A stretch of DNA of 64,000 nt from Gonapodya sp. JEL0774 (lineage: Eukaryota; Monoblepharomycota; Monoblepharidomycetes; Monoblepharidales; Gonapodyaceae), in NCBI GenBank assembly GCA_027604505.1, contig JADIIX010000042.1:62001-126000 (forward strand), in the 5' to 3' direction. Under the pieces are notes generated by a model, which ran no database searches, was not told the DNA's origin, and was given only the letters and a program-made list of their open reading frames with translations. Positions within the stretch are counted from its first letter, which is position 1. Every line of letters starts with the position of its first letter. Shown one piece after another: positions 1,023 to 23,802 of this stretch. The translations under genes and the position numbers were made by a program.

Positions 1023-4000
1023 TCATGCGTGGGTGTTCAAGTATGTTGTGTTACTCGCTCCATTTGGTGATTGCTGGTACAGTATCTGCAATGCGTGATT
1101 CTTCTCCTGCGATGGTATTGTTATGAAAAAATCATGATCAACTAAGGGATTCAACATAGAGCAACACTCAAAACTCACTGCAAGCAGGTGAGTCACATTC
1201 TGCTCGTTCCGCACCCAAAAGGATTCCAATTGTGTCAAGTGAGCAATATGGATATCTAAATCTTCAACAACTTGAACCAAGTCCTCCAGGCGACCCCGTA
1301 TCCTCGCCACATGCACAAGCCCTGCCCTATATATGGCAGTCATCTCGAGGCACGAGCTATGATATGAAGCCGTTTCCGACAGGCGGAGCAAATCCGTCAC
1401 TCCTCTTGCATGCGCAACTGCATTGTGGAACGCCAGTGAATTGAGCCATTGTGGAGGTGAGACTCCCAAGGTCAGAGTGAGCGGAGATGAAATCGTAAGA
1501 CCGATCAAATCGTACAGGAGCGATATGCGGCGAAAACTCGGGTTTGACCACGTTGGGTTCGAATACGTCGCAACGAGTTCAAAGCGCCATTCAGCAAGTC
1601 GCTGGACAAACAGATTGTATCCGGGAAAAGCTGCTGGATTCGATGGATCGAAACCAGAGACCACAGCGTGCTTCCTAGTTTCCAGGAAGTTAGAAAGAAT
1701 CTAGCAGTGGGGAAGCGAAGAATTGTGCAGTGACAGCTATCACACTAGAAGATGTTGCTTTCGACTAAATGGAATCCTGACCTGATAGAGTCCAGGCATG
1801 TTGACAATTGTGGTGAAGGCAGCATTTGGTGACGTGCCCAAGTATCCTTCCCACTTAATGTTTCTGCCGATTAATGAACATGGAAGAAGAAGAAGAACAA
1901 CAGGGATGTAAGTATCTGATCTTGCTTCTACCAATCAAAGACGAGGAATGCAACTTCAGCAACTGAAAATCACGAGCAATCTCTGCATCTACAACGCAGC
2001 GCTAGTCTGCAGTAAAACCGTGCCAACCTACTCACAGAGTGGCCGGTCTGAGAGAAAACTCGGATTCTTCAATTAAAGGCATTCTATCGTCAATGAGTGA
2101 GGATTGGCGATCGTACAGGTACACTGTAGCGTTTGTGTCACATACAAGGAATTCAACCACACGATGCGGAACAGATGAACAGATGAACGTGTGAAGGAAG
2201 GCACGCTAAATGGGTGAGAAGAGAGGAATTGACCGATTACCCACCACTCCATCCTGTCCTCCTTCTGACTTCGTCGCTAACGGATTGCTCGGATTCGCTC
2301 ACATCGTCGCTTCGCATCACGGGGCTCTCTTTGAATAGTTCCATCCTGTGTATAATGAGAATGGCCAAACGGACCATCCCACGACCCAAAAAGGAATTTG
2401 ACATTATTTACAGCTTCGATGATTCCACCACACAAAAAACCCCATCAACGGCACCAGAGAGCACTCACTCTCGAGCAATCTTCACTGCGACCCTCATGAG
2501 AGGCAAAGTTACGTTCGGGAATCTCAGTGTCGCATACCGGGCCAGAAACAAGACTGCTTCCACATGCTCCAACGCGCTTCTCCCCGGCTGCGCATCCGCC
2601 AGTGCGGCCGTGGTCCTCATCGCTCGAGCGAAGTAGTGGTCTCCGAATCGCTTGCTGACAGCCGGGGGTAGCAAGGCGTGTGTGGCGGGGGACCATGCGT
2701 GCACCGTTGCCTGAGCGGCACCAGTGGGGAGGAAGTGGAACGAGGAGCGGTCCGGGTCGGTGCGGAGGGCGGTGTGTGACAGTGCGCGGCGGATCTCCGG
2801 GGCGAGGCAGGGGAGGTTGGGTTGGCCGGAGACCATGGCGCCAATACAGAGGAGGGAGTTCATGAGGTAGTGGTTGGGACGGGTGAAGGAGGAAGGCAGG
2901 AATGATGGAGAGGTTGGACTAGCGTAGCGTAGTATGGGGAATGGACGCCAAGTGTAAGGGAGTCCAGCAGAGAAGCGTATGATGGAGAGTTCGTGCGGAG
3001 AAAGCAGTGCCGTGCCACACGTGGTTGAAAAGCAGTAGCATGGGTGTGGGGAGTGGAAGTGCAGGAACAAAAGACGAGCGTATCACTAGGAGAACGTACA
3101 AATCGCGCTAAGGATTTCTGTGCAGTGTGAACAGATTCATCGACTGAACACACGGGTCCCACAAAAAGTAATCACATTGTCCCACCTCCTCCCTCAAGCC
3201 ACACCCTGACGTTCACCACCCATTCTTGTTGCCCGCTCCTCCATCTCACCACCTCCAACCCCAAACCCCCTCTTCGAAACCTTGACTCACTAAATATGCC
3301 TATAAAGCAAAAAGTATGAAAAGGACCTCAAGAGGAACAGGCTAGCGACCTCGTTGTTCGGCACTGAGACGTAGTACCCAAACCAGAGACGGCGGGGAAT
3401 CGTAGGGGAGAGTGCGAGGTGATGTGGGAGGTGGGGTGGGTTTGAAACGCGGTTGTTAGAGAGTTGCGGCAATCGGTGTTCTTTCTCCTTCTCCCCCCGA
3501 TTTTGACACCCCAACTGCATCCAAGCAAAATACAATATCAATATTCAAAGCCTGACTCACCCGGTCCCAAATCCTCGAATCCGGTCAGATGCAGCGCGAA
3601 CGGATCTGGAAGTGGTGGTACGCGTGAGACGGGGCTCGGGATGTCGAGGTCGAGGTTGGGAGTGGGGACAGCGGCGGTGGAGGCAGGGGCGGGGGTGGTG
3701 CCGGGAGTGGAGAAGTCGAGGGTTCGAGCTTGCGGTTGGGACTCGGGACGCGAGTTTGGATGGGAACTAGACTGGGAGTGTGGTTGGGACGCCTTGAGCT
3801 GCCTTGCTTTGTCAAGGGAGACGGGTAGAGGGCGCTGGAGGAGGTAGTGGGGCTGGAGCTGGACAGATGCGTGGCCCTCGCACTCGAAGTCGCCCACGGG
3901 CGAAGACGCGCACGGGGACCGCCACGGGTCTCCAAACGCGGTTTCCACCGCGCAGCTCTGTGGACGGTCATCGTGTGGCGATTGGGTGTGAAGGTGGTTC

Positions 4001-5507
4001 GTGGCCTCTGTATCTGCGGAAACAGACGAGTCCTGCCCGTAAGGAGACAGCGAGTGTGGAGTGTGATCGGTGGCGACGTGAGGCAAAACTATTGGTGCGT
4101 GAGATAGTGTGGGTGTGGGTGTAGGTGCTGGTGCTGGTGCTCGGGTGGAATTGTATGTGGATGTTGTCGTGGCCGAATCCGACTGGCATGTTGGTCGAGG
4201 TCCGGGTCCTGGATGGATCGCAGTGGGTCCGCTTGCGGCTGCTGCTCCGAATCCGGAGGAAGATGGAGAGGAGGAGGATAAGGAAGGATACGTGGGTGCG
4301 TCGGGTGCACCAGGCTCGTCAGCGGAACGTGGAGTGTCATCCACGGCTGCCACGATCGAGTGCGGACCCATGACCACCGAGCCCGCGACCCAGTCACGGT
4401 GCGTGTGCGCATCGACATATGCGTTCGAGTCGGAAAGAATGAATCCCGCCAAGGCCTCAAAATAAGTTTCCAGACGGGAGAGGGCGGCGTCAACGAGATC
4501 AAAGGTTGGTTTGGCGGTGGAGGAGGAGGGCTCCACAAAGGGCACCTGATGCGGTGCTTGTCGTTGTGAAGGTGCGGTGGTGGTGTGATTCTCGGTCGGG
4601 TTTCCAATATGGGCTCTACTGGTTGGGGAGGCGATCGGAGAGGTGCTTGTTGCAGTGGAGGTAGAGGCAGCAACGTGAGCACGAAGAGCGTCGAGGCGGA
4701 GTATGCGGGAATAGAGGCCGGATTCGAGCCAACCCTTTTTTGGACCGGGTTTGCGGAGGATGCGCACTTTGTTCAGGAAAGGCAAGTTGCAAATAGTTGG
4801 AAGGAGTCAAGATGGATCAGGGAAAGTGGTAGGGTACATTTGGGACGAGTTTTTTTTTGGAGGGGGGATAGAACAATATCATTGACTTGGTGACTGTATC
4901 ACTCGGACAAGAAGAAGTGGTGGTGAAAGTGACTCACCCGCAGTGCAGGGAATATTTTTGAAGATGCAACGTGCGCAAGGATCATTCATGTCACTAGAGG
5001 GTGCAAGAAAAGAGACAAGAGCGCAAGTTATATGAGTTTGTTGAATCGAGTATGAGTGTGGTGAACGAGTGTGCGCGTGTCCATGCCCACCATCGTTCGC
5101 TGTGTTTAGGTTTGGTGTCGAGTTCGATTACGGCACAAGCGGGATGAACACAAAGCAGGGTGGAGAGAACAGATCCAAGGAGTGGCAGAGATGAATTGCT
5201 TAACTGTGGGAGGGGAAGGAAATATGGGCGGACGGACAACACTCACCGGATCGATCGACAGCCATCACAGGGCTTTTGAAATGCAGCAGCACCAGCGCGT
5301 GATGGACGGGGACATTCGTAGAACCGGGCGCAAAACGAGACATAGAGTCGGAAAGTGCAACATGGACACGCTGTCCACACAGGAGGAACCCACGATGGCA
5401 CGCTTCCCCGGACTGTGCGGTATCTGTGCATTCTGCTGATTCTTGACGTCACTGTATTTTAGCGTTGGGTATGGCGAGTATTTTGGATCAGTCCCCAATG
5501 GCGGCAT
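1023..5507 (-). CDS. Zn2Cys6 fungal transcription factor A
   Basis: A nuclear DNA-binding regulator; its targets cannot be read from the sequence. I place exons at 5394-5507 (MPPLGTDPKYS...SPGKRAI), 5247-5272, 5091-5099 (9 nt), 4938-4993, 3561-4766, about 2465-3100, 2245 to about 2360, 2036-2123, about 1780-1870 and 1023-1700. The first exons spell CDGCRSIRERCD then PCARC and IPC, a complete six-cysteine binuclear cluster. It is followed by the linker RKPGPKKGWLE, about 350 disordered Ser/Pro/Thr-rich residues, then the middle homology region (VEAVLFLARYA, RRRTGWSVYLYDRQ) and a helical C-terminus. Factor B at 21057-23802 aligns along its whole length and shares intron positions, which supports this model. 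The splice path around 2950-3150 is the least certain part. Confidence 0.8.
5091..5099 (-). other. 9-nt microexon in factor A
   Basis: On the minus strand CGAACGATG is flanked by ACACAG upstream and GTGGGC downstream. Joined to the exon ending at 5247 (...ATCCG) and the one starting at 4993 (TGACATG...), it reads R-E-R-C-D and supplies the third zinc ligand. Exons 5247-5272, 5091-5099 and 4938-4993 total 26+9+56 = 91 nt, exactly the length of the single uninterrupted homologous exon of factor B (21221-21311), which encodes the same RERCD. Confidence 0.8.
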
Positions 5508-6478
5508 CTGTCTGACAGTGGGAGACGATTCCCTCGGTTCTGCTTCCAGGTGTTTAGAAACTGAGTGTCCTTCTAAGGTCCGGTCTGTCCCTTCCCCCTA
5601 TTAAGAGCCCCTCGCCATGCAAAACTTTAAATTGGGGGTTTGATGAATTTACTAAGTCCAAATTGCTTTAGTTTATTGGATATCGTGCGATGCTAGACTG
5701 ATGGTGATATTCCAACGCCGATAGTATCGGGTATGGACAGCTTCGTGATCCAATGAGAAACGGGCTGCACCTCCGTGCCGCGCCGTGCCGTGCAGGGATA
5801 TCAAACCTTGGTATGCACTTGCTTTCCACCATGACGAGCCCTGGGTCCTTTGATCCGTCCGGGTTGCCTGCACCGTCTGTTGAGCAGACACTGTACACAC
5901 TGTGGCGTCCACTGTCCTTCCCCACTGTCTCCCGGTGCTATGTATCCTCTCCACTATTTCTATGCACATGGTTCCGCATCTGCTCCGGAACCCCTCCTCC
6001 TCTCACCGCCACACTCGGACTCCCAGCCTCATCACCCACCGCATCCCCGTAAACATCATTCGAGCTGACCTTGGCCTTGGAGTGCGCAATTCCGTTCCCA
6101 CTTGCACCTTTGTTGGCTTCTCCGTGTCCATACACATTCTCGCCTGCTCCGTCGTCCGGCTGGTCCCGCAGCTCCACACCCAGCATAGCGTACCGTGCCG
6201 ATCCACTTCCACTTCCCCGCCCTGACCACGGCCAGACTCGCCGCCCAAGCCACCCTAGAGTGTCATGCCAACGCATCCCGGTCGGCCCACTATCGTCGTC
6301 GGACCCGCGGGTCAGGTTGACGTGTTCAGAGTGCCCACCCACGTTTGACCCTGCTGCTCCCTTGGTGCCAGAAAGAGTATGCACCACCGAGAGCACATCA
6401 TCGACACACCCTAAAGGTGCACAAACAAACGTGCCGAAAACAAGCCATATCAAGCAAAAGTGAGAAAAGAACCATCAC
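5508..6478. other. Region upstream of factor A with one unassigned open frame
   Basis: This stretch lies between the start codon of factor A and the probable stop of the transporter, so it should hold factor A's promoter. A 171-codon frame on the minus strand (5938-6453) begins with a hydrophobic segment (MIWLVFGTFVCAPLG) and continues Gly/Asp-rich. It could be a small secreted protein or a misplaced transporter tail exon, or simply chance. Overlapping frames on the plus strand are equally open, so I do not call it a gene. Confidence 0.3.
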
Positions 6479-8597
6479 TTAAACAGCGTCGCAGCCTTCC
6501 CCCGAAACACATATTTCACCCGCCTCACCTCGCCACTCTCCGCGATTCCTCACCCCAACCCACCACACCACACACCCGCTTGCCAACACCCCACCGCTCG
6601 CCAGACCCTCCCTCGGCGCGCCCGCCACGCCCACGACGACCAGCATGACCGCGGTTGCCAAGAACGTCCCCACCACGACAGCAGGCGCGCGGTACGGACG
6701 GACAAGGTGGGCGTGCGTCGTGCGCAGCCGGATAAGTGAGAGGGTTGTCGTGGTGTAGGAGAGCCAGCCGGTGGGAGCAAGCCTGGCGGGCGCAGGTGGA
6801 ACGGTTGCGCAAGTGAGGTTGGTGGGCGGAAACGATCAAATGCAAACGCAAGGGTCTCAAACTACGAGACTTCGCCGACACACTGCTTCCAAAGAGACGC
6901 TCTTCACTACCCACAAGTTGACCAACCCCTCATATGACCCGGCGAGCACGAGCGCCGAGCTGATCACCGCCTGCAGGATCAGTGCTCGAACCGGTATTCC
7001 CGTTGTGGGGTCCACCACCGCAAAGTACTTTGGCGCGTTTCCATCGTGAGCGACTTTGGCAAGTGTGCGACATGCGGTGAATATAGTCGCATTGCACGCT
7101 CCAAAGGTTGCGATGAGGACGATCTGAAACCACAAGGAGGCAGGTGGGGGCAGGGAGATGCGGAGTACGAGGATTGGGAACAGACGCAAGGGTTGATCAT
7201 ACGTTGCTGGGGAAGATGACCCAGCTACGCGCAAGCCTCACTCACTAGTGGAAAGAGATGCCCTGTCGCAGTCCCGAACAGCCGGACACCATAATCCTAG
7301 GCACAGGGAGTCGACCAAAGTCGGCGAATAGATGTCACCAAAAATCCCCGTCAAGAGTACCACTACGGTTCCTGGAATTAATTCCCCCCACGACTACTCC
7401 ACTCACCACCACTACCACCACACTGCCCCTAACAACATCCACGCCCACGACTCCCAGATACGCGACATTCGCCAAAACATACACAGTCGTTACCAGTGCG
7501 CAGGCAATGGCGACAGCGCGAGGTACAGTCTTGCCGGGATTCTTCACTTCGCCGGCAACATTGTTCAAGTTGTTGAACCCATCGTAGGCAAAGAGGACGG
7601 AATATAAGGCCAGAGCGAACAGGCGCGGGTCAGAAGGAACCGGAGGCGGCGCGGGGAGGGCAATGAGAGGGTGGAAATAGAAGTAAGGTGCGGTCGCGCC
7701 GATGCAGAGAAGGGCAATCATCTGTTGCGTGGTAGAAAATATTGATTCGGGTGGAAACCTTACAAAAGAGACAACGAACTACTGACCTTCAAAACGGTGG
7801 AGACGTCCCCTACAACTGTTCCCCATCTACCGCTTACTGCATTGACGACAGTGAGAACAAGCACACACCCAACGGCCGACACCCTTTTCAACAAGTCGGT
7901 TATTTCCCTGTCTGAGTCGTCTCCTCGATATCCCGCCATTCTCACGAGGTATTCTCCGAACACAACGGCATCGACTGCGAAATAATAATAAGAAATGAGG
8001 TGGAACAAATCAATCGAACGCGCTCTGGGAATGACTCACCAGCAACTCCTCCGGGCCGACCGAGAAGCACAATAGTCCAGTCATACAGAAAAGAAGGCAA
8101 AGAACCAAATGCTAAATGGATATAGGTGTGGTCGCCACCAGAGTGCTGGAAGGTGGACCCAAGTTCAGAATACTTCCGAAAGATCGTTGGTCAGTGCGAA
8201 GATTCATGGCAGAGTCAGGGATTGATGGGAAAGGGGATTAAAACTCACAACTAGCCCACCAGCAATGGTTACGAGTCCTCCGATCAACCATATAAGCAAT
8301 GCGGCGGGGTAGTTCCCTCGTAGCAAATTCAAGACGACTCCTGGGCTAGCGAATACTCCCGAGCCGACAATCTGCCCCAGTACAAGACTTGTAGGTTTGA
8401 GACGTGAAAAATTCCCGTTGATGGGAAGCTCGGCGTGAGATTATGTCGCGAGTAAAGCGGGCGATGGCTTTCACTGACTTGATCGATGTGAGCAGCCCAA
8501 TCGTCCGAGGGGGCCCGGGGTGCGCAGTTCCGTTGCCATCTAGAGCAATTGCATCATCATCGTCGATATCAACGGTCTCATCGCCGGTCAATGGCAT
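6479..8597 (-). CDS. APC/LAT-family amino-acid transporter
   Basis: A multi-pass plasma-membrane permease of the L-type amino-acid transporter group (AA_permease_2). The start is MPLTGDETVDIDDDD at 8597, an acidic cytosolic N-terminus. After an intron comes the TM1 signature LVLGQIVGSGVFASPG, then LIWLIGGLVTIAGGLV. Later exons give GGDHTYIHLAFGSLPSFLYDW, the long exon with FAYDGFNNLNNVAGEVKNPGK (the conserved TM6 region), ATFGACNATIFTACR, and finally VRPYRAP followed by the last two membrane segments. At least six introns interrupt it. Substrate specificity is not evident. The family often pairs with a heavy chain in animals; fungal members usually act alone. The last few codons before 6479 are uncertain. 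Confidence 0.8.
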
Positions 8598-8972
8598 GAT
8601 CACGGGGATATGACTGTTGATGTACCCACTAAGCCTACACCTTCGCACAACGTGTACATGCGCACAGCCGGCTAGATTAAGCCTACTACCAAAAGCGGCG
8701 ATAAAATGTTCGAGATTAATTCCTAGGTTGATGCCGGCCAGCGAGTGCTACAACTGAGATTTCATCCAACAACAAGTGGTGGTGTTCACTCCACCGCCGC
8801 GTATCCTTAATGGTGCTGCTATTGTAGACAATAATGATCCATTAGAGCTGAATTGATTGTTGTGAGGACATCGGCACCAGGGTGATCCCTGGATGTAGTG
8901 CTGGTGAATCACTTGCTCCCGTTCAGTACTATCAGCCATGTTATAACACTATTTCATGTCAACAGAAAGTGT
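8598..8972. promoter_or_regulatory. Transporter upstream region
   Basis: This is the gap between the transporter start codon and the acetyl-CoA synthetase stop, both on the minus strand. It must hold the transporter promoter and the synthetase 3' end. I recognise no specific operator or box in it. Confidence 0.35.
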
Positions 8973-21056: not shown

Positions 21057-23802
21057 ATGCCTCCCACCAAGAAGCCACCAAAATCGACATCTGGAAACTC
21101 TCAGTACGGGGCAGCAAAGCGAGGACTGGTGGGCATTGACGACGAAAGGGGGACCTCCTGTTGATTGGCATATTCTTACCTACGAATCATCCTGCGGTGA
21201 CACACAATTGGACCGATCAGCCGTGTGATGGATGTAGGCAAGCACGAGAACGATGCGACAGGAACTCGCCCTGTCGCCGGTGCCATGAAAAGGGGATTCC
21301 ATGTGTCACGGGTAAGGGGGAGCTCAATCACGTTGCCTGAAGCCTCCCTTCGCCACGTCAACATACTCTCACTTGTTGCTTCAGAGCGAGAGATCCGTCG
21401 ACCAGGACCTCGAAAAGGCTGGCTTGAGTCCCTCTACTCGCGTGTACTCCGAATCGACGGGATGCGGGCACAACTCGACAAGTCTGCATTTGCTGAGTCG
21501 TTTCTGGGGGACAAGACGACATACGAGTTAGTGGAAGCAGCACTAAGGCGAATTGAAAGCTACTTTGAGGTTCTAGTGGCGTCGTCGTCGGAAGCGGGCT
21601 ACCGACACACGAGCATCACGGCACCGGCGTCCACACCAGCAACTGTTCCTCGTCTCGGCCGACCGTCATCATCAAGCGATGAGAGCTCCGATGAAGACTT
21701 TCCGCACTATTTAGCACCACCTGCAGTACCGATAGCTCCACCAAGGATTTCTGAAGCCGCGGATATTAATGTGAAACAGTACATGGAGGTCTTCAACACC
21801 CCTTCCATGGAGCTTCCCCTAGAGCAGTATGCTATGTCCCTGCAGGCGCAGAATGACTCACCGGCTATGCCATTCGGAGGGGTGTTCGAAGTTGCGTCAC
21901 CGGTTTCCTCTGACTCCTCCTCCTCCTCCTCTTCTGATGGTAACACCAATCGAGGCTCATCGTCTGCCGCAGCTGATGCCATTGCAAATTCTCCTGGAAC
22001 TCTGACCGTATCGCCCATCGCCTTGCATCTTGATGAACACGCGAGTATTGGCCCTGGTACGTCCCACTTGTCGATCTCGACTTGCTATGGATCGTGCTCA
22101 ATAAGTTGGATCCGTTTCTTTCTTAGTGCCGAGTGTGGACGTGGCAAACCTTTTTCTGATTCGCTCATTCGCCTACCTACTGACCCATCGCACACTGTAC
22201 CCAACATCGCCGAGGTGTGTGCTGGCCGATTCTTGGTCCACCGCTTTGTCTCTGCCCTGAATCACGAACGACATTCTCTTTTAGCTTTCGTCCAAGCTCG
22301 TTTGCACAGCCGAACCCCTTTCTTTCACACGGTCTCATGTGTTTGGGAGCGATGGTATCGCTCTACCCCCACATGAACCGTTTATCCGCAGAATTTACCG
22401 GATTGAGCTCTCAGCCCATTGTCCAGACGAAATCTGGCAGCCTTCAAAAGCTCCTGACGCAGGGTAATCAGCCGCATACCCAAGACTTGAGTAAATTGTT
22501 CATCTGGACAACCGCCGCTGCCGCAATCATTACCCGGGAAGAGTGTCAGCGATTCGGGGACTTTATTCTCTACCGTTCCCTGCGTATGCTCCGGTGTATC
22601 TTGGACGCACCCCCGGCCACCCGACGACTCGACACGGTGGAGTCCGTCTTGTTCCTCGCGCGGTACGCGAATCTCACAGCACCAGATGCTGTGCTACCCC
22701 TAATCTCCGTGGCTGTGAAAATGGCGAGGGAGCAGGGCTTATTCAAGGAGACTTCACCATATGTATTTGCGGGCTCGAGTGAGCGCGACCGTGTCGAGGA
22801 GGAGGAAGCAAGGAGAAGAACTGGATGGTCAGGTGAGTTGAAGTCTTTGTGTGGCTTCTTCGTAGGTGTGGAAGAGTGTGAACGGCCTGTCGAATTGCGT
22901 TCGAACACAGTCTACCTTGCTGACCGACAAACTGCGATCATGCACAATACGATGCCTTTAATCGAGGAGTGGGAAATGTCATTGAAGATGCCAACTTTGT
23001 GAGTACTTTCGGTTTTCCCTTGCGCCCATGACTAAACTAGAAGGTTGTAACGTCAACTTGAAGGTCAATTGAATGGGAACAATATTTGGGAGCGTCGCCG
23101 CACACTTATTTCACGATAAAAGTGAATACAACGGAGCTGTACCGGGTGAGTCGAAGTCAAAGATGGGGCGTCTTCCCTCTTGTTTGTCCGGGTCGTATGG
23201 AAGTGTCAACGTCGTGTGCTCATTTCGTTTCTTCGTCCCAGATTCTTTCTGGCTTCCTCGAACACCGCAAAGTCTCGATCCAGCTAGGCCAGGACCCGTC
23301 CGATCCCGGATCTCTTCCCAATTACTCAGCCTTTCAACAACGCCTCGCCACTTGGCATGCCGACTTAATTCTCAATGTGGAGCCTGCACCCAAAAACGCC
23401 ATATATCGACGGACATTCCTACTCTTCCATTTCATCGCCATCATCATTAGTTCACCCACAGCAATCATGGACATGCCTGCCGTCTGGATCTCGAGTATCG
23501 CGTTCGCCAACGCCGTGAACAATGCCAAACAGATTGCAGAGCTTCTGAGACTTGAGGACTCGATCATTCACCACTGTAGTTGTCTCGAGATGACTGCGGT
23601 GTACTGGGCCGCAATTGTGCATGCAGCGAGAGCGTTGACGGGGGCCTTCTCTGAGGGAGCTTTGCAGGATCTGAACACACATATTGAGCACCTAGAATTC
23701 ATTGCCGACTTCTGGGTTCGGGTGCCCGTTTACTTGCGCGACTTGAAGCATTTGCGAGCGAGTGTTCTCTGGAAAACAAGTGGAATCTCGGTAAACTCAT
23801 AA
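21057..23802 (+). CDS. Zn2Cys6 fungal transcription factor B
   Basis: A nuclear DNA-binding regulator, full-length paralogue of factor A on the opposite strand. Exon 1 (21057-21128) encodes MPPTKKPPKSTSG...AAKRGL. Exon 2 (21221-21311) encodes the whole cluster: CDGCRQARERCDRNSPCRRC, then IPC. Exon 3 starts at 21385 with EREIRRPGPRKGWLE and runs through a Ser-rich disordered region to 22056. Exon 22127-22214 and the exon from 22285 form the start of the middle homology region (TSPSFRPSSFAQPN, MCLGAMVS), followed by VESVLFLARYA. An intron at 22833-22910 gives RRRTGWSVYLADRQ. The last exon begins near 23243 (ILSGFLEHRK) and ends at 23802. Each splice joint is mirrored in factor A. Confidence 0.85.

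Follow-up and report, generated by a model that had tools for sequence, protein, structure and literature searches.

The window analysed here, a stretch of 64,000 nucleotides from Gonapodya sp. JEL0774 (Monoblepharidomycetes), holds on its minus strand a gene for a Zn2Cys6/Fungal_trans factor (positions 5507-1023), which we call gene A, and further along on the plus strand a paralogue, gene B. Gene A was modelled by hand as 12 exons that encode 936 amino acids with zero internal stops, and in this model a Pfam search finds Fungal_trans (PF04082), a common but not obligatory companion of Zn2Cys6 clusters, at residues 492-704 with an E-value of 8.2e-10. The zinc cluster is spread over exons 2 to 4, the middle one of which has just nine bases. 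An initial annotation of this DNA had placed this exon and its two neighbors, and the coordinates, splice dinucleotides and frame are all as it claimed. Table 1 collects the features.

Table 1. Features of gene A and paralogue B, in positions of the window.
Feature	Position	Strand	Length	Content	Basis
Gene A, exon 1	5394..5507	-	114 nt	N-terminus MPPLGTDP...GKRAI, ends in phase 0	homology with B and C
Gene A, exon 2	5247..5272	-	26 nt	PCDGCRSI(R), Cys1 and Cys2; followed by GTGAGT	sequence and model
Gene A, intron 2	5100..5246	-	147 nt	GTGAGT..CACAG; missing in B and C	
Gene A, exon 3 (microexon)	5091..5099	-	9 nt	CGAACGATG, between CACAG and GTGGGC	
Gene A, intron 3	4994..5090	-	97 nt	GTGGGC..TCTAG; missing in B and C	
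Gene A, exon 4	4938..4993	-	56 nt	after CTCTAG; last base of Cys3 codon, then DMNDPCARCIFKNIPCTA with Cys4-Cys6	
Gene A, exons 5-12	1023..4766	-		linker RKPGPKKGWLES, low-complexity region, Fungal_trans, stop	hand-built model
Paralogue B	21057..23802	+		8 exons, 733 aa; Zn_clus and Fungal_trans	hand-built model; Pfam
Paralogue B, exon 2	21221..21311	+	91 nt	uninterrupted, entire cluster PCDGCRQARERCDRNSPCRRCHEKGIPCVT	

When exons 2, 3 and 4 of A are spliced in silico they give PCDGCRSIRERCDMNDPCARCIFKNIPCTA, with the cysteine spacing CX2CX6CX5CX2CX6C. Fungal Zn2Cys6 clusters (Zn_clus, PF00172) have the spacing CX2CX6CX5-12CX2CX5-9C, and the cluster of A fits this rule. It is a predicted binder of zinc and DNA whose nearest solved structure by sequence is LEU3 (2er8, E 0.0011), the match to Gal4 having an E-value of only 0.59-0.64. 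In the microexon the final base of an arginine codon is followed by the codons for ER and then by TG, to which exon 4 adds the T that makes up the Cys3 codon. The description of the microexon as the supplier of a zinc ligand is therefore right to the extent of two of the three bases of that codon, and with them the cluster is complete. The 5' boundary of exon 2 was set from the homologous exons of B and of a third copy, C, and the frame upstream of it stays open even without intron 1. At the exon 1 junction the three copies agree in phase and have similar residues. Between the zinc cluster and Fungal_trans, positions 3561-4766 (minus strand) hold a long low-complexity stretch of A that is rich in Pro, Ser and His.

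The length of the interrupted cluster was one of the arguments of the initial annotation, and it holds. The exons of 26, 9 and 56 nt add up to 91 nt, which is the length of exon 2 in B, and copy C, which lies on contig C18, matches as well with a single exon 2 of 91 nt. The residues RERC are identical in the three copies, and the nine bases in register with the microexon are CGAACGATG in A and C and AGAACGATG in B. Seven introns are common to A, B and C, and the gene layout is the same at them. Four introns of A have no counterpart in B and C, two of these being outside the cluster, and the median intron length is 123 nt in A against 73 and 62 nt in B and C.

The deposited gene models give a different picture of these proteins. 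The model of A, HDU93_006952 (about 3538-8750, minus strand), omits the cluster, since it has neither the microexon nor exon 4. In it part of A is fused to an amino-acid permease that lies upstream, and the model runs into intron 5 before it ends. The deposited B, HDU93_006955, starts in a different frame across the cluster, and the deposited C, HDU93_002778, lacks the cluster. Because the models of B and C are without clusters too, the omission in A looks like a fault of annotation. Two protein searches, with 7995 candidates scored in each, listed as matches just these three deposited proteins and one relative from G. prolifera, M427DRAFT_139735; an orthologue of A was not found among these matches. 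The G. prolifera protein aligns across the whole searched part of B and keeps a cluster with the same spacing, CDRCRQLREKCDKGIPCQRC. With the C-terminal half of A as query nothing appeared at E <= 0.001 among the matches listed, which carries little weight: that half is missing from the deposited A protein, and A itself is unlisted among the 7995 candidates.

How easily such an exon could arise by chance was estimated in the 253-nt interval between exons 2 and 4, which were held fixed, with 1-40 nt allowed for the microexon and 40 nt or more required of the intron on either side. The interval holds two in-frame, stop-free microexons of 1-40 nt between AG and GT, and the 9-nt exon alone completes the cluster. 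The other, a 33-nt microexon with the same acceptor, was considered as a different splice route to an intact cluster and was rejected, as it fails to complete one. When the dinucleotides were shuffled 20,000 times, some completing microexon was present in 573 shuffles, one with [RK]x[RK]CD in 11 and one with RERCD in 0. A splice-aware profile model scores A at 47.8, and the top score of 150 shuffles is 24.1. In all the sequence tests that were run, the nine bases come out as coding.

Skipping of the microexon would join ATC CG to T GAC, so that IRD is read and the peptide runs CRSIRDMNDPC, in frame and with Cys3 lost, just as had been proposed. The Pfam Zn_clus score is 28.3 bits with the microexon, in the 936-aa model, versus 15.4 bits without it, in a 211-aa N-terminal piece, with the cut-off at 21. 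Losing a ligand cysteine abolishes DNA binding in Gal4-type clusters. A product that lacks the microexon would keep its frame but have its cluster broken. If intron 2 or intron 3 is kept a stop follows, and if exon 2 is dropped, alone or together with exon 3, a stop comes immediately or no more than three codons on. Of the three ways to omit one or both of exons 2 and 3, only the loss of exon 3 by itself leaves an open frame.

The splice sites were ranked against a reference of 57 introns by leave-one-out, a small set in which 32 of the 57 were picked by our own model. Against this set intron 2 has its donor at the 91st percentile and its acceptor at the 40th, and intron 3 has its donor at the 18th and its acceptor at the 42nd. 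The splice sites of A are within the ordinary range of other introns. An intron that skips the microexon would measure 253 nt, more than most: two of the 57 introns are that long or longer. One of these two, at 372 nt, is in A itself, so a length of 253 nt would be feasible.

To place the microexon among the other zinc clusters of the genome we took a census. Of the 40 genomic matches to Zn_clus it took in 39 (the fortieth is B), to which the C23 locus, A and B were added to make 42 loci, and the splice-aware cluster model was run on each. One locus (C37), whose model was not settled, was left out, leaving 41 clusters. The Zn_clus search gives best candidates only and missed A, so more finely cut clusters will be absent from these counts. 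At least one intron lies between Cys1 and Cys6 in 27 of the 41 modelled clusters, and seven of the 41 have two. Inside the 33-nt arm from Cys1 to Cys3 are 30 of the 34 cluster introns, a ratio that overstates the number of independent events because related genes share positions; the count of distinct positions, 14 in the arm against 2 in the remaining cluster, is safer. The intron density is about 22 per kb in the arm (41 clusters), whereas genes A, B and C have 3.3-3.4 per kb elsewhere. This concentration may come from a general 5' bias of fungal introns or from K/R codons that are prone to splicing.

Some of the census models deserve less confidence than others. Shuffle tests cover 13 of the 41 loci, and most of the single-intron models are outside these. 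For C68 and C191, respectively 9 and 10 of 150 shuffles scored equally well, and on account of these scores their short upstream exons (9 nt and 11 nt) were left uncounted. Their in-cluster introns, two in each, were also read by eye and are kept among the 34; with both loci removed, 28 of 30 introns in 39 clusters are in the arm. The counts likewise leave aside a second C114 intron, the zero-length parts of C34 and C191 and the end artefacts seen at C124 and C164. In copy C the splice-aware model has an upstream intron of 333 nt versus 79 nt in the model built by hand, the acceptor being the same, and because of this difference in the donor the donors that the census model places before Cys1 are unreliable.

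The view that an exon this small at a metal-ligand codon is unusual among fungi goes too far for this genome, where the clusters are often cut by introns and several have tiny exons. Twelve internal exons of 32 nt or less occur in 10 of the 41 loci, a count that includes the 26-nt exon of A and excludes C68 and C191. We call a small exon forced if, unless both adjacent introns are spliced out, the frame runs into a stop or the cluster is short of a ligand cysteine. Six are forced: the 9-nt exon of A and those at C44:18142 (15 nt), C23:165470 (16 nt), C18:204954 (27 nt), C195:5965 (28 nt) and C18:145204 (32 nt). The six unforced ones could be longer exons and come from homology or splice scores (A, 26 nt; C14, 25 nt; C75, 28 nt; C23, C69 and C71, 11 nt each). 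The C14 exon was tried as a forced exon and rejected, since another acceptor could lengthen it. All ten counted loci outscore all of their 150 shuffles, narrowly in the case of C69 (45.6 against 43.5) and C71 (39.4 against 37.4). The other five forced exons resemble that of A in that each bears at least one ligand cysteine, whole or as part of a codon. They differ from it in having other intron positions and in all being longer than nine bases, and two of the five are multiples of three. Over all twelve small exons three are multiples of three (9, 15 and 27 nt), which is about what chance gives and therefore no sign of selection for exons that can be skipped in frame; the three of six among the forced exons are too few to tell. 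The exon of A is the smallest of several microexons in the intron-rich part of the zinc-cluster genes.

The simplest reading of introns 2 and 3 is that they were gained in A, and the alternative direction could be a loss in the common ancestor of B and C. Introns 2 and 3, out of the four extra introns of A, were also searched against the genome with simple repeats and very common words skipped, and each returned a match to itself only at E <= 1. An introner origin of the two is for that reason without support.

The closest precedent is Xlr2 of Trichoderma virens, a factor with Zn2Cys6 and Fungal_trans domains in which, as in A, a tiny exon of the cluster bears ligands. This 20-nt microexon encodes PCRRCE, the form of the message is reported to depend on glucose, and the domain was missed by annotation (PMC11121469). 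In both genes automatic annotation missed the exon, and without it the DNA-binding domain is incomplete. The differences are also considerable. The Xlr2 exon has 20 nt, is not a multiple of three and carries two cysteines (Cys4-Cys5), whereas that of A has 9 nt, is in frame and carries Cys3. The former is conserved in the Trichoderma species analysed there, and the latter is absent from paralogues B and C. The alternative form of Xlr2 is made as separate transcripts. The authors saw no reads that link exons 1 and 3, so Xlr2 is not a case of simple skipping (PMC11121469). At C195:5965 onward, the 28-nt exon supplies Cys5 and the last base of Cys4, and it overlaps the region of the Trichoderma microexon. 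Other very small fungal exons are known from P450 genes: RNA reads confirm a 1-nt exon in a conserved motif of Fusarium CYP621A, alongside which a Phanerochaete P450 is cited for an exon of 8 nt (PMC12940212). These are like the exon of A in being very small, inside a conserved motif and needed for the frame or the motif, and the CYP621A exon was likewise recognised with the help of an intronless relative. Unlike A, CYP621A is a P450 gene, its exon is confirmed by RNA reads and regulation is not claimed for it in the passages concerned (PMC12940212). No paper on zinc-cluster microexons in chytrids was found among the matches listed, in a search that had most subscription journals outside its scope.

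We consider it probable that the nine bases are a genuine coding microexon that is constitutively included, lies between two introns in the hot spot and was missed by annotation. The splicing of the exon into the message, the constitutive nature of its inclusion and a mechanism of intron definition are all inferred. A cluster on one 91-nt exon would have been divided in A by two extra introns nine nucleotides apart, into pieces of 26, 9 and 56 nt. The introns of 147 and 97 nt would each have a length that allows recognition across the intron, and if both are removed separately the microexon would be retained, as an intact cluster would require. What speaks against constitutive inclusion is that the donor of intron 3 is weaker than most and could allow some skipping, that the size of the skipped intron is plausible next to the 372-nt intron, and that HDU93_006952 lacks the microexon and exon 4, though this model is clearly wrong elsewhere. 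The same weak donor, at the 18th percentile of 57 introns, together with the tiny size of the exon would suit neutral mis-splicing, in which the microexon is mostly included and a small skipped fraction is unregulated and without a role. With both introns short and separately recognisable we find this very unlikely. That the nine bases are unused, the protein having no zinc cluster or the gene decaying and the match being a relic or chance, is extremely improbable; the deposited model does omit the cluster and no orthologue of A was found among the matches listed, but the frame runs through 12 exons and 936 amino acids with Fungal_trans, the shuffles gave RERCD in 0 of 20,000, and the deposited B and C also lack clusters, which points to the annotation.

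The initial annotation went further and suggested that the microexon could be a switch between an active factor and a dominant-negative form. Of this interpretation the coding exon, the ligand codon and the in-frame broken cluster are supported, and the regulated inclusion and the dominant-negative form are not: the splice sites are ordinary, 3 of 12 small exons are multiples of three, B and C have no introns there and the matches listed include no orthologue of A. On such a reading, skipping in some condition or stage would give a protein with a dead cluster and its other domains kept, which would interfere with the active form or its partners. It could draw on the omission of exon 3 being the only one that keeps the frame open, on the fairly weak donor after the microexon and on the glucose dependence reported for the zinc-cluster microexon of Xlr2 (PMC11121469). 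However, we judge it unlikely, as the two closest copies have no separate exon at this place, the share of multiples of three is near chance, exon skipping is comparatively low in fungi according to a study whose references include the G. prolifera run SRR427152 (PMC6142364), and in Xlr2 itself the authors saw no reads joining exons 1 and 3 (PMC11121469). A regulatory switch is by analogy a possible and reasonable hypothesis, with one published parallel. A broader version, in which the hot-spot exons between Cys1 and Cys3 would act in Gonapodya as a joint splicing gate on DNA binding and the variant in A would yield a competing inactive protein, seems to us decidedly unlikely. If it were true, slowed or altered splicing would cause many Zn2Cys6 factors to lose their DNA-binding domain together, as reported for Xlr2.

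These findings suggest that fungal zinc-cluster factors can have their DNA-binding domain concealed in exons so small that automatic annotation overlooks them. The deposited A, B and C are all without clusters that the DNA encodes, and in B and C no microexon is involved. Because deposited models drop clusters in this way, counts of Fungal_trans proteins without a zinc cluster may be inflated in such genomes. The concentration of introns in the Cys1-Cys3 arm also raises a testable question on how introns are gained where coding sequence is basic, K/R-rich and close to the start of a gene, and the census supplies genes among which one could look for control of DNA binding by a splicing switch. 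A relative of A is found at C23:165470-165703 (minus strand), where the cluster is cut by a 16-nt exon with Cys2 and probably by an 11-nt exon with Cys1 too.
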